The translations under genes were made by a program, and so were the position numbers. Below are positions 545 through 17,695 of a DNA stretch of 64,000 bases, one piece after another. Origin of the DNA: Methanolinea sp. (GTDB taxonomy: Archaea > Halobacteriota > Methanomicrobia > Methanomicrobiales > Methanospirillaceae). How positions within the stretch are numbered: position 1 is the stretch's first letter; every line of letters begins with the position of its first letter. The stretch covers positions 1 through 64,000 of the forward strand of contig JASEES010000007.1 of NCBI GenBank assembly GCA_030019395.1. Reading direction: 5' to 3'. Below the pieces are notes generated by a model that saw nothing but the letters and a program-made list of their open reading frames with translations, had not been told where the DNA came from and ran no database searches.

Positions 545-1543
545 TCAGAATTCCGCACTCTTCGCGATGTTCTCCCAGTTCTCGACAAACCACCGGTGCG
601 TCTCCAGAAGACCTTCCTCAAACGTCGTCCTCGGGTTATACCCGATGACTCTCTGCCCCTTCGCGATGCAGGAGAGCAGGTGCGTCTTCTTGTCCCAGTC
701 ACGCCTTTCCCTGTAGACGATCCCGGCCCTGCTCCCCGTGAGTCGCAGCACGGAATTTGCCATGTCGATGACGCGGGTCTCGATGCCGGAACCAAGGTTG
801 ATGGCCTCGCCGACGGCCTCTTCCCGGACACCCATGGCAAGCAGGCCCTGGACGATGTCCCCCACGTAGGTCCAGTCACGGGTCTCGGTCCCATCACCGG
901 TAATCGGCAGGGGTTCGCCTTTCATGGCCCAGTAGAAGAAGTTGGGGATGACATTGCGGTACCTGCCCGGCACTTCACCGGGACCAAAGGAGTTGAAAAA
1001 CCGGGCGTTGACGATCGGGAGGTTGTAGAGGTTGTAGAAGTAGTTGGTGTAGAGCTCGCCGAGCAGCTTCGTGACCTGGTAGGGGGTGTGGAGCCGGATG
1101 GAAACGTCGTGCTCTTCGAACGGCATCTTCGAATCGAGACCGTAGACGCCGCACCCGGAAGAAGAGTACACGAACCGTTTCACCCCGACCATGTGGGCAT
1201 ACTGGAGAACCTTGAGGATCCCCATGCCGTTGACCATCAGGTCGGTCTCGGGGTTGTCGACAGAGTTCTGGTTTGCAAAGTGGGCAGCGAGGTGGAAGAC
1301 GTAGGCGGGCTTCTCCCGGAAGACCCGCTTGAGGGCTTCGTCGTCCAGGACGTCCCCCTTCACGAACGAGATGTTGGGGGCCTTCGGGATATTCCATTCG
1401 TATGACGAGCTGAGGTTATCGAGGATGATGACCTTCCTCGCACCGAGGGAGGAGAGGGCACGGCACAGGTTGCCCCCGATTGCCCCCGCCCCTCCTGTCA
1501 CCAGGATAGTGGCATCCCGGTAGAATTCTTCGAAAGATTCCAT
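545..1543 (-). CDS. NAD-dependent epimerase/dehydratase (extended SDR)
   Basis: A 332-residue extended short-chain dehydrogenase of the UDP-glucose 4-epimerase / dTDP-glucose 4,6-dehydratase superfamily. The Rossmann motif TGGAGAIGG is at about residues 16-24. Catalytic Ser residues sit in VYSSSG (about 125-130) and the Tyr/Lys pair in YQVTK (155-159). Such enzymes oxidise and re-reduce a nucleotide sugar during its interconversion. It is followed immediately by the methyltransferase at 542 and sits in a minus-strand run with a second SDR and a GT2 enzyme, which fits synthesis of an S-layer or N-glycan sugar. The exact substrate cannot be read from the sequence. Confidence 0.9.
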   Translation of the reverse strand: MESFEEFYRDATILVTGGAGAIGGNLCRALSSLGARKVIILDNLSSSYEWNIPKAPNISFVKGDVLDDEALKRVFREKPAYVFHLAAHFANQNSVDNPETDLMVNGMGILKVLQYAHMVGVKRFVYSSSGCGVYGLDSKMPFEEHDVSIRLHTPYQVTKLLGELYTNYFYNLYNLPIVNARFFNSFGPGEVPGRYRNVIPNFFYWAMKGEPLPITGDGTETRDWTYVGDIVQGLLAMGVREEAVGEAINLGSGIETRVIDMANSVLRLTGSRAGIVYRERRDWDKKTHLLSCIAKGQRVIGYNPRTTFEEGLLETHRWFVENWENIAKSAEF

Positions 1544-14616: not shown

Positions 14617-15498
14617 TCACTTTTTTTCCCGGGCCTTCTTTGCCTTGAGCTCCCGGAGCGATGCCTCCGGGTGGGCGAGCAGGTAGTCTGCAATCGCGGG
14701 CTCGTGGAGGAGCGTGCAGGTGCTGCAGTTCCAGACAAGACCGTTCTTTGCGGAACTCTGCACCCACTGGCCGAGGCTTTCATCCCCGCAGGGGTAAAAC
14801 GGGCAGTAACAGAAGTCGCACCTCTGCCCGGGAAAATGGCAGGGATAGTAGGGGCACTCTTCAGGGACCCACTCGGCCCAGTGATCCCCCTGGTACCGGC
14901 TGTAGATGAAAAAGGACGGCCTCTTTTCCGGACCCCTGCTGCCCGCACTCCGCTCCATCACCGTCCGCGTGCCGAACCGGACGGCCTCGCCGATGCGCAA
15001 CCCGATCGCGGACGCGGGCGAGGCATCGGCGTGCACGACCTCCCCCTCGCATGCCACAACGAGGGTATCCTGCGGGCTCTCCAGCCTTCCCGCACCATCC
15101 CTCCCGCACAGGACAGCCATGCGTGCCGCAGTCGCCGTCACGAGTGCCCCGAGGAGTGCCGCGTCGCTCAGGCCTTCCCCGGAATAGACCACGATCGAAA
15201 AGCCGCCGCCCGATCCGTCCCCCGGGCCCGGCGCGATGAAGACCATCAGGGAATCGTACTGGAGGATGCAGAATCGGGAGGGGTGAGCACCTGCAAAGAC
15301 CCCGAAAAAGTCGGGGGGAAGCCCCTCCCTCCGGACGGCCCGCTCGAGGATCCGCAGGGAATCCGCCTCATCCCCGGCAGCCGGCGGACCGTGCACGACG
15401 ATGGTCGGGACGGGGCGGAGACCCCCGGGAGTCCCCGTGCCCGCCGCGCGGAAGTGCCCGCGGAGGAAGAGGGTGTTGTCGCGGATGTAATACCTCAT
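14617..15498 (-). CDS. cbiZ: Adenosylcobinamide amidohydrolase fused to a Cys-rich domain
   Basis: From ATG 15498, 293 residues starting MRYYIRDNTLFLRG. Residues about 60-195 match CbiZ, which removes the aminopropanol side chain in archaeal corrinoid salvage to give adenosylcobyric acid: SGEGLSDAALLGALVTAT, DTLVVACEGEV and SPASAIGLRIGEAVRFGT. The last ~85 residues are a cysteine-rich metal-binding-like domain (CPYYPCHFPGQRCDFCYC, then CGDES and CSTCTLLHEPAI) of a family often found attached to CbiZ. The frame is open upstream, but this part carries no homology. Methanogens need corrinoids for methyl-transfer enzymes. Confidence 0.87.
   Translation of the reverse strand: MRYYIRDNTLFLRGHFRAAGTGTPGGLRPVPTIVVHGPPAAGDEADSLRILERAVRREGLPPDFFGVFAGAHPSRFCILQYDSLMVFIAPGPGDGSGGGFSIVVYSGEGLSDAALLGALVTATAARMAVLCGRDGAGRLESPQDTLVVACEGEVVHADASPASAIGLRIGEAVRFGTRTVMERSAGSRGPEKRPSFFIYSRYQGDHWAEWVPEECPYYPCHFPGQRCDFCYCPFYPCGDESLGQWVQSSAKNGLVWNCSTCTLLHEPAIADYLLAHPEASLRELKAKKAREKK
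14621..14627 (+). terminator. Poly-T terminator after the DUF1858 gene
   Basis: Seven T residues starting 10 bases after the stop codon, inside the tail of the convergent CbiZ gene. Confidence 0.5.
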
Positions 15499-15593
15499 GG
15501 CAGGATGAAAACGGGATGCACGCGACCCTGTTTGCCCGGGCCGGTCAGGGAGGCTCTCATGGTAACCGGCAGGAAAGGGAGGGGGAGGATACC

Positions 15594-15956
15594 CTAGGCG
15601 AGGGTGTACCTGACGCGGTCTTTCAGTTCCTGCTGTTTTCCGGCATTCCAGCCGGACACTTCCTGGAGATAGCCGGTCACCCTGCTGATCTGGACGACGT
15701 CGTGGCTCCCGCACTCGGGGCAGACCGGGGCGCCGCAGAGGGGGCAGTACTCGATGCTGGAGACGATCTCGTGGGAACAGTGGCAATGGTCCAGGGGACA
15801 CATGATCTCGAGGTGCGTATCGCCGCAGACGGGGCAGGGCGTCTCGTCAACGACGAGGTGGCAGGAATGGCACTTGTAACGCCGCTCGGCGGGGGGAATA
15901 TCTTCGAGCCGCCGGAGTGATCGGGCTAAAATAAGCTGTTCTTCGCTCCATTGCAT
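15594..15956 (-). CDS. Stand-alone glycyl-radical C-terminal domain of class III ribonucleotide reductase (NrdD-like)
   Basis: A 120-residue protein made of Cys-rich ribbons followed by an NrdD C-terminus. Residues 71-82 form the CPLC...CPEC zinc site and 91-120 carry RVTGYL and WNAGKQQELKDRVRY, the region that holds the radical glycine (here Gly95) in anaerobic NTP reductases. About 65 N-terminal residues add extra Cys pairs (29/32, 41/44, 53, 58/60). No catalytic 10-stranded barrel is present, so it must act with another protein or have a different role. Start at 15956: TTTAAATGC lies about 26 bases upstream, implying a leaderless mRNA. Confidence 0.85.
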   Translation of the reverse strand: MQWSEEQLILARSLRRLEDIPPAERRYKCHSCHLVVDETPCPVCGDTHLEIMCPLDHCHCSHEIVSSIEYCPLCGAPVCPECGSHDVVQISRVTGYLQEVSGWNAGKQQELKDRVRYTLA

Positions 15957-16066
15957 ACAATACGATGGCCATTTTTGCATTTAAACCCTTTGTTTGGGCC
16001 AGATCCGCCTCAGGGACTCATAGGGGTCATCACGGGGCACATGATCCCGTCAGGTCACGGTTCTCA

Positions 16067-16702
16067 TCATCGGCGGAGGAACCCGAGTGCTGCCGCCTCG
16101 GCAGCGGGGTCGGCAGACTGGTAGACCTGCCTGCCCACGATGATCCCGTCCACGAGAGGGGCAATAACCTTTGGGTCGCCGCCCTGCGCCCCGGCACCCG
16201 GCGACCAGATGAGGCGGTCGCGGACGATGCTGCGCAGGGCCCTGATCCGTTCGGGCCGCGTCGCGGGTGCGATGATCCCGTCTGCCCCGAGGGAGACAGC
16301 CATCCGGGCAATCCTCTCCGGGACACCGGCGGAAAAGAACGTGAGCGCGCCGGGGTGGCTCATCTCGGCGACCACGAAACAGCGGCCTCCCTGCCCGTGC
16401 GCGGTCTCGACGCAGGCGAGGACCGAGTCCTCCCCGCAGAAACCGTGGCAGATGATCCCCTCAAAGCCGGCTGAAAAGACCGCCTCGGCGATGAGCCTGT
16501 TCGTGTTCGGGATGTCGGCGACCTTGAAGTCGGCGACGAGGGGCAGGCCGAGGGAGGACAGGTCGCGGGCAACGGAGAGCCCCGACCGGAGGACGAGGGG
16601 GTATCCCACCTTGATGGCGTCCAGGTGCGGGGCACAGGCCGCTGCAACAGAGACGGCCCGTTGCGGGTCGGTCACGTCGAGGGCAAGGACAAGATCCGTC
16701 AT
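16067..16702 (-). CDS. pyrF: Orotidine 5'-phosphate decarboxylase
   Basis: Final step of UMP synthesis. The 211-residue product starts MTDLVLALDV at ATG 16702, overlapping the upstream deoxyhypusine synthase stop by 4 bases. The catalytic Lys/Asp region is VADFKVADIPNT (about residues 57-68), with the phosphate-binding APATRPERI and IIVGRQVYQS near the C-terminus. Length and motifs match archaeal PyrF. Confidence 0.95.
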   Translation of the reverse strand: MTDLVLALDVTDPQRAVSVAAACAPHLDAIKVGYPLVLRSGLSVARDLSSLGLPLVADFKVADIPNTNRLIAEAVFSAGFEGIICHGFCGEDSVLACVETAHGQGGRCFVVAEMSHPGALTFFSAGVPERIARMAVSLGADGIIAPATRPERIRALRSIVRDRLIWSPGAGAQGGDPKVIAPLVDGIIVGRQVYQSADPAAEAAALGFLRR

Positions 16703-17628
16703 ACCCCGAGCCTCTCCCGCACCGCAGCCACGAGGAGGGGCAGCGTGATCGTTGCGTCGCCATAGACCGTCACTGCCCGGGCGCTTGCCGTGATCTTGCC
16801 CCACGACCGGGCCTCGTCCAGCGTTGCACCCGAGAGACCGCCGAGGTCAGGGCGGTCCCCGGTCAGCTGGACCGCGTAGTCGAATCCTTTCGGGGTCATG
16901 AGCATGCTCTGGAGGATGTAGTTCTTGGGAACACCGCCCCCGACGAGGAGGGCTCCCGCCGATTCTGCCGAAAAACAGAGGGAGAGCAGGTCCTGCATGT
17001 CACCGAACGCGTCCAGGATGGGCCTGTGCGTCTGGGTGTAGAGCCAGTACTGGAGTCCCGCCATGGAGTCGGCCAGTGCCGGGCAGAAGACCGGGACACC
17101 GTTGCGTGCCGCGGACGCGAGGATGCCCGAGGGGAGCGATGCACCGACCTCTGCGAGGAACTTCCGGACGGTGAGGGGGGCCTGCGGGGCAAGGTCCCCG
17201 AAGCGCTCCTGCATGAACTCCTCGAACCGGATGAAGGACTCGTTGGGCAGGAAGACATCGTAGATCCTGTTGATCTCGGCGTCCCGGAGCGCGACGTCCG
17301 AGCAGGAGGCCGTCCCGTGGTAGTGCCGGCACCCGAGGGCCTCGATGATATCGTGGGTGAGGTTTGCACCCGTCGAGACGAGCACGTCCACGAAACCGGC
17401 ATCGATGAGGTCGCTGACGATCCTGCCCATGCCTGCAGGGACCATCGCACCCGCAAGCCCGACGAACCGGGTCACCGCCTTGTCGCGGAGCATCGCCTCG
17501 TAGATGTCGGCCGCCCGCGCCAGTGCGCCCCCGTTGTATGCTCCCGCCCGGCCCATGGCCGCAACGAGTTCCCCGACGGTCATTTTCGGCCGGAGAACGA
17601 TCTGCTCGACTGACTCCCCGCATTCCAT
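16699..17628 (-). CDS. dys: Deoxyhypusine synthase
   Basis: Transfers the aminobutyl group of spermidine to a lysine of aIF5A. ATG 17628 gives 309 residues starting MECGESVEQIVLRPKM. Conserved NAD-binding elements include STGANLTHDIIEALG (about 100-114), and the catalytic Lys lies in GGGVPKNYI near residue 247. The frame is open to 17832, but that part is not conserved. Co-translated with pyrF through an ATGA overlap. Confidence 0.93.
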   Translation of the reverse strand: MECGESVEQIVLRPKMTVGELVAAMGRAGAYNGGALARAADIYEAMLRDKAVTRFVGLAGAMVPAGMGRIVSDLIDAGFVDVLVSTGANLTHDIIEALGCRHYHGTASCSDVALRDAEINRIYDVFLPNESFIRFEEFMQERFGDLAPQAPLTVRKFLAEVGASLPSGILASAARNGVPVFCPALADSMAGLQYWLYTQTHRPILDAFGDMQDLLSLCFSAESAGALLVGGGVPKNYILQSMLMTPKGFDYAVQLTGDRPDLGGLSGATLDEARSWGKITASARAVTVYGDATITLPLLVAAVRERLGV

Positions 17629-17695
17629 GGTAAAGGTGTATCGAGGGGAAAGGAGATATTTTTTGGCTGGAAATGCGTGGAAGACAACCCTTTCG

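Follow-up and report, generated by a model that had tools for sequence, protein, structure and literature searches.

Class III ribonucleotide reductases (RNRs), the anaerobic enzymes that supply DNA building blocks in the absence of oxygen, have otherwise been described as one chain, NrdD, that carries a tethered radical domain. Here, a whole methanogen order, the Methanomicrobiales, appears to separate the two. The gene under study lies at positions 15594..15956, minus strand, of a 64,000-nucleotide stretch of a Methanolinea sp. genome (contig JASEES010000007.1, positions 1 to 64,000), hereafter called the window. It encodes a protein of 120 residues which very probably serves as the radical-bearing subunit of a class III RNR encoded by two genes.

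The one-chain NrdDs of P. copri, T. maritima and T4 share with this system the NRDD barrel family, the zinc site, the radical loop and an NrdG-type activase. The present system differs in that barrel and radical domain are separate proteins encoded by unlinked genes. In addition, the radical domain carries a further zinc ribbon, and the spacing in its zinc site is X4 instead of X10. Small stand-alone glycyl-radical domains (GRDs) that act in trans are known as YfiD/GrcA and Y06I, the latter encoded by the virus T4. According to the accessible part of Andorfer et al. (2021, PMC8683613), only these two have been validated as spare parts, for pyruvate formate-lyase (PFL), and a similar use for other enzymes is speculated. 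In E. coli, the variant PflB-G734A produced formate with the GrcA domain in trans and none without GrcA (PMC12338860, accessible in part). Hence, a trans-acting radical domain has a precedent. In contrast to YfiD/GrcA, the domain described here is of the NrdD type and not of the PFL type. Moreover, its partner in the order lacks a built-in domain, which would make the protein a permanent component and not a repair piece.

Split reductases have been described as well. The class II RNR NrdJa-NrdJb of Pseudomonas aeruginosa likewise consists of a large polypeptide and a small one, with the division near the C-terminus, and was called the sole case of a split reductase outside viruses (Crona 2015, PMC4520616). 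It differs from the present case in that it is B12-dependent and encoded by one operon, and NrdJb serves disulfide exchange and not the radical. In phages, nrdD genes are broken by introns, inteins or fragmentation into neighbouring frames. There, too, nrdD occupies more than one reading frame, but the accessible sections of that paper describe no unlinked radical-domain gene (Dwivedi 2013, PMC3653736). The literature searched, which covered few subscription journals, described neither a cellular class III RNR in two pieces nor an NrdD-type spare part. Likewise, neither is mentioned in the accessible portions of two RNR family papers (PMC9669993, PMC9531940), of Lundin 2010 (PMC3019208) and of a methanogen-virus survey (PMC9723712).

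The gene and the elements of its product are as follows.

15594..15956, minus strand: gene of the stand-alone NrdD-type GRD protein (120 aa), the proposed radical subunit; identified by its translation and the Pfam NRDD match.
15825..15872, minus strand: extra N-terminal zinc ribbon C29-X2-C32...C41-X2-C44, outside the NRDD match; invariant in 54/54 rows.
15771..15800, minus strand: second Cys/His cluster of C53, D56, C60 and H62; invariant in 54/54 rows.
15711..15746, minus strand: GRD zinc site C71-X2-C74-X4-C79-X2-C82; the four Cys are invariant in the 54-row alignment.
15669..15683, minus strand: radical loop R92-V-T-G95-Y96, with the codon of the proposed radical Gly95 at 15672-15674.
15636..15650, minus strand: W103-N-A-G-K107 motif in the C-terminal tail of the domain; W103, N104 and K107 are invariant.

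The plus strand of 15594..15956 is interrupted by stops, and the open reading frame (ORF) reads on the minus strand from 15956 to 15594. An in-frame ATG further upstream would lengthen the protein to 128 aa. However, the start of the 120-aa form is a Met in 57 small proteins, including that of the window, and several homologous frames (e.g., L037, L117) have a stop just ahead of it. TTTAAA at 15980-15985 (minus strand, read by eye) lies about 29 bases upstream of this start, which we take to be the usual spacing of an archaeal TATA box ahead of a leaderless start. Positions 504-562 of the 562-position NRDD profile match residues 64-117 (E 7e-15, 55.1 bits vs. a cut-off of 26.2). In the Pfam scan, the NRDD barrel is absent from the protein, and up to E 1 the matches are NRDD and mostly zinc-ribbon families, with no PFL-type radical domain among them. 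The first-pass annotation of this DNA, made from the letters alone, had described a 120-residue protein with the C-terminal signature of NrdD and no barrel. The minus-strand gene bears this out with CPLC-X4-CPEC, RVTGYL and WNAGK. The annotation had also seen several additional N-terminal Cys pairs, which resolve into one extra CxxC-CxxC ribbon (C29/C32 and C41/C44) plus C53, C58 and C60. C58 is not invariant, in contrast to C29, C32, C41, C44, C53 and C60.

Conservation was assessed in an alignment of 54 rows (A1), including the window protein, which comprises the 57 small proteins minus the near-duplicates L033, L041 and L049. It is gap-free over 120 columns with a mean column identity of 82%. 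For six genes, five of the genus and one of the family, dN/dS was 0.03-0.18 in 14 of the 15 pairs; the 15th pair gave no value, and several dS values were above 1. Because of this conservation and the low dN/dS, a pseudogene or chance ORF is ruled out. Gly95 is invariant in 54/54 rows, and the RVTGYL loop aligns to RITGYL in P. copri NrdD. The radical residue of that enzyme is Gly711 according to the accessible part of PMC11226230. Hence, Gly95 is the expected radical site and would be the same Gly as Gly711, assuming an offset of 4 between the numbering of the chain and that of the paper. The zinc site was compared with 30 fused NrdD loci. In 16 of them the site is intact, and the middle spacing is X10 each time, whereas the window protein has X4. 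The other 14 are off the pattern: five retain just one Cys of the first pair, namely the first, and the remaining nine are L062-L070. The five (L081, L082, L089, L090, L091) belong to families f8 and f24, and L081 and L091 come from genomes which also have a stand-alone domain. A fold search with the predicted structure of the small protein gave no match at E ≤ 0.001, and the confidence within the radical domain was low.

The annotation had proposed to look for an NrdD elsewhere in the genome, with or without its own Gly domain, and for NrdG. Both were found, and the NrdD has no Gly domain. Within the 1.8 Mb of the window's genome, which is 95.8% complete, NRDD matched twice: with positions 504-562 in the window gene and with positions 1-511 in a frame of 747 aa that lies on a different contig. 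Counted from its ATG, the large ORF (L001 1117-3300) encodes 727 aa. Besides the NRDD barrel, this protein gives a weak ATP-cone match below the cut-off (20.6 vs. 25.8 bits). It finishes with ...GYFAFTRDLTVSLHQF and a short variable tail, whereas fused relatives continue with ...GYFAFTRDMTVCLSC...CPRC...SRITGYLQAVSGWN through the zinc site and SR[IV]TGY. The break thus sits between the barrel and the zinc ribbon, and the two sequences complement each other. Five Cys of the large protein, including C-X2-C-C, are invariant in 22/22 split and 8/8 fused sequences. In a structure search with the predicted large subunit, the best 31 PDB matches were all class III RNRs, despite a mean pLDDT of 61.5. 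Of the parts that make up a class III RNR, the barrel and the conserved Cys lie in the 727-aa partner, and the radical loop and the zinc ribbon lie in the window protein. They belong to two unlinked genes and not to one polypeptide.

Since the break lies in the linker and the pieces are complementary, they might be joined into a conventional NrdD after translation or as RNA, e.g., by split-intein trans-splicing. In some relatives, the large gene has long in-frame insertions elsewhere, which are possibly inteins. Against such joining, the 50 large ORFs read in the order, from 37 genomes of which some contributed twice, all end in a tail of only 27-41 residues, with the F of FT[RK]D as the starting point of the count. 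None of these tails has a CxxC, and R[VI]TGY occurs nowhere in the 50 ORFs. Moreover, the small piece begins with a conserved domain that bears its own zinc ribbon. Judged on length and conservation, with no intein profile applied, joining is most improbable.

The split is conserved throughout the order. Among 61 related genomes, 49 have a completeness of 90% or more and a contamination of 5% or less, and 48 of these have the large piece and a separate small gene. The remaining one (G056) has no NrdD. Its only match to the small protein (E 1.2e-5, 34%, within a 1147-aa frame) was spurious and not taken as a homologue. Among the matches listed inside the order, large pieces that reach their end stop at profile position 510-516, except those cut by contig edges or insertions and an extra full NrdD in G037. 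Outside the order, the listed NrdDs reach 560-562 except in G116 and G186. In 10/10 one-contig genomes checked, the large and small genes are 19 kb to 1.3 Mb apart, which rules out a contig-edge artefact. When 392 genomes of the phylum were searched, the 120-aa protein turned up in 74 of the 83 listed genomes of the order. The other nine all belong to genus g29. The list runs by kinship, and 120 genomes without a match lie outside it. A scan of named genome contigs gave 251 relatives. The titles of the best 80 of these are Methanomicrobiales taxa or only "Euryarchaeota archaeon", and the closest is a Methanolinea. In a midpoint-rooted tree of the barrel, which also holds 17 fused sequences, the 21 split ones lie on one side of a branch with a support of 100/100. 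The fused NrdDs that adjoin them are those of families f8 (86/79), f24 (90/100) and f22. Because of this topology, the split looks derived and of single origin.

The NrdG-type activase of the window's genome matches TIGR02495 (NrdG2) over the cut-off (G000:C48:37363-37944). NrdG2 is over the cut-off in 19 of the 21 genomes examined, and the two without it belong to genus g29. In 9/9 genomes of this genus, the large NrdD, the small gene and NrdG2 (E ≤ 1e-25) were all not found. The residual matches there are at E about 1e-4 for the small gene in two genomes, and weaker radical-SAM matches in the two genomes checked. NrdG2 is present in 5/5 genomes of genus g22, which is of the same family as g29. 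As three unlinked genes are missing together, these distributions point to one machine formed by the large piece, the small piece and NrdG2.

A further question is whether deoxynucleotides come from another reductase. In that case, the small protein would be a sensor or regulator, as the annotation had considered, the truncated NrdD would be inactive or otherwise employed, and a class II RNR would supply the cell. A class I/II-type RNR is indeed present in 46 of the 61 genomes. However, a search with PF02867 found no class I/II RNR in nine of the 49 good genomes (G018, G020, G023, G027, G030, G031, G034, G036, G051), and all nine carry both NrdD pieces and NrdG2. Hence, the split enzyme is probably their sole source of deoxynucleotides. 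In addition, the radical Gly, the zinc Cys and the barrel Cys are invariant, and the occurrence of NrdG2 follows that of the pair, in presence as in absence. We therefore consider the sensor role very unlikely.

Stand-alone GRDs also occur in at least 12 genomes outside the order (G089, G097, G109, G114, G146, G160, G184, G231, G240, G324, G358, G372; loci L250-L260 and L262), in frames of 88-194 aa. One copy, given under genome G114 and under locus L257, has a degenerate end. An 85-aa frame in G229 was excluded from the count as a contig-cut fused NrdD. All 12 genomes also have an NrdD that reaches position 562, which in G372 is in two adjacent frames. The outside domains have the C-X2-C-X4-C-X2-C spacing of the window protein, and a profile comparison of the two stand-alone sets, with the radical domain included in the match, gave 99.9%. 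For the N-terminal parts alone, the order matched the outside rows weakly, with 14% for family f8 (E 0.002), 0.4% for f24 and 5% for all outside rows; f8 and f24 compared with each other gave a better 83% (E 9e-6). Because the branching in a tree of the radical domain alone (about 50 residues) was not resolved, the case for a common ancestor of these domains is built on the X4 spacing and the profile match, which make it likely.

The annotation had offered three roles for the window protein: a spare part, the second half of a split NrdD, or a sensor. The second is strongly supported. Acting as a spare part, in the way YfiD/GrcA serves PFL, the protein would take the place of a C-terminus lost to oxygen cleavage in an otherwise intact NrdD. 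It resembles YfiD in being a stand-alone GRD with an added N-terminus (PMC8683613, in its accessible part). The target of YfiD/GrcA keeps its own domain, and the 12 outside genomes show this arrangement, so their domains are candidates for NrdD spare parts and may act as such. The order does not show it: in the window's genome and in the searched genomes of the order, the partner NrdD ends before the domain, and the sole extra full NrdD is that of G037. For the organism of the window, the role was rejected, since there is no intact NrdD found in the genome that could be repaired; for the protein in general it is extremely unlikely. A full NrdD in the genome and homologues without the loop glycine, which the annotation had named as evidence against its proposal, were both not found. 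The preferred interpretation remains the two-gene reductase.

In the proposed mechanism, the large subunit (727 aa) would contribute the barrel, in which the active-site cysteines lie, together with its ATP-cone-like start, and the 120-aa protein would provide the zinc-bound C-terminal domain with Gly95 in trans. NrdG, a radical-SAM enzyme, would abstract a hydrogen from Gly95. The charged domain would then dock in the mouth of the barrel, at the position of the tethered domain in ordinary NrdD, and generate a thiyl radical on an active-site cysteine, and nucleotide reduction would proceed as usual. The extra N-terminal zinc ribbon probably substitutes for the lost covalent linker as a docking handle, which is a guess from its position and conservation.

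Several points weigh against the two-gene reductase. The small gene was also not found in G003, G014 and G029, three of the 12 less complete genomes (all three are 62-73% complete); the first two have the large piece, and the third has neither. In G053, a contig edge truncates the large piece. G037 encodes, besides the split enzyme, a complete short NrdD (L128, C1:590703-592373) which adjoins a weak NrdG2-like match. The genome of the window also carries a class II-like RNR, so the split enzyme need not be essential there, and at a completeness of 95.8% an unseen second NrdD is possible. The model of the large subunit is poor, as its mean pLDDT indicates, and that of the small subunit is low in the radical domain itself. 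The C-X2-C-C stretch is presumably the finger loop, judging from known structures. We infer the physical complex, the radical on Gly95, the activation by this NrdG and the role of the ribbon.

The neighbours of the gene are conserved. They were counted over 115 loci, to which some genomes contribute two.

14617..15510, minus strand: CbiZ / cysteine-rich small-domain gene (PF04071, PF01955), downstream neighbour; 110/115 loci.
16070..16723, minus strand: orotidine-5'-phosphate decarboxylase gene pyrF (PF00215), upstream neighbour; 112/115 loci.
16699..17634, minus strand: deoxyhypusine-synthase family gene (PF01916), neighbour; 110/115 loci.

Some genomes show peculiarities in one of the pieces. 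G171 has two large NrdD copies about 16 kb apart (C1:285076 and C1:300796), neither with a radical domain (L168, L169). G025:C73 (L127, about 1141-1467, minus strand) encodes a divergent second copy of the small protein (43%) with AGY instead of TGY, which may be decaying or viral. The in-frame insertions in the large gene of several relatives, which possibly are inteins, result in frames of 886-1727 aa (including L159, L160, L165 and L166) and lie at profile positions around 53-60 and 259-263. The class I/II RNR gene also has frames of about 1100 aa in G039, G044 and G054.

Two scans of IMG/VR gave 21 distinct viral loci. A scan with the outside-order alignment A2 gave no match, though three viral proteins found with A3 are of the outside type. 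A stand-alone GRD is present in 14 of the 21 loci (L264-L270 and L274-L280; L269 and L270 are identical), and no NrdD barrel was found on these records, which are fragments. Six loci (L271-L273 and L281-L283) have an NrdD reaching 562. In the remaining one, L284 (G426), the NrdD is in two frames covering positions 1-525 and 534-562, which may be a broken gene or another split. SR[VI]TGY and the X4 spacing are kept in 13/13 distinct stand-alone viral proteins, and the last pair of the zinc site is C-X-C in L265 and L275. Ten of them score highest against the Methanomicrobiales protein, the other three against the outside type. The protein of L264 is 78.5% identical to the small protein of G037.

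To characterize the viral surroundings, twenty neighbouring proteins were compared with PHROGs. A terminase is near the GRD in L266, L267, L270, L275, L276 and L277, accompanied by a portal in L267 and L270. A baseplate is near in L268 and L280, and a primase, helicase or Sak4 in L264, L274, L278, L279 and L280. The neighbour in L265 has a peptidase-like match only, and one neighbour in L277 has no PHROGs match. A separate phage collection gave six records, five annotated as anaerobic RNR large subunit and one without annotation. Viruses of methane-making archaea of this kind appear to carry the radical piece as well.

A broader view, which is somewhat less than probable, is put forward tentatively. 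It regards the NrdD radical domain as exchangeable, first a spare part and later an obligatory subunit in Methanomicrobiales. The spare part would have arisen in an ancestor of the order, next to an NrdD that still possessed a built-in domain, and some outside genomes would still show this ancestral state of a spare part beside a full NrdD. The spare would have made the built-in domain dispensable, which was then lost, so that the spare became obligatory in Methanomicrobiales. Viruses of both groups would keep or seize the synthesis of host DNA precursors with their own copies, which would be comparable to the PFL spare part encoded by T4.

As far as the literature searched shows, the outside domains are the first concrete candidates for NrdD spare parts. 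If the domain is an exchangeable part, it would be the first trans-acting radical domain of an RNR and a traceable case of a repair part that turned into a subunit. With separate genes, the oxygen-fragile radical piece could be produced, charged and exchanged without involving the barrel, and perhaps also counted separately. The separate proteins allow the study of activation and docking and raise the question of whether swapping the small subunit rescues the oxygen-damaged enzyme. For the viruses, the domain would be a lever of 120 residues on the dNTP supply of the host.
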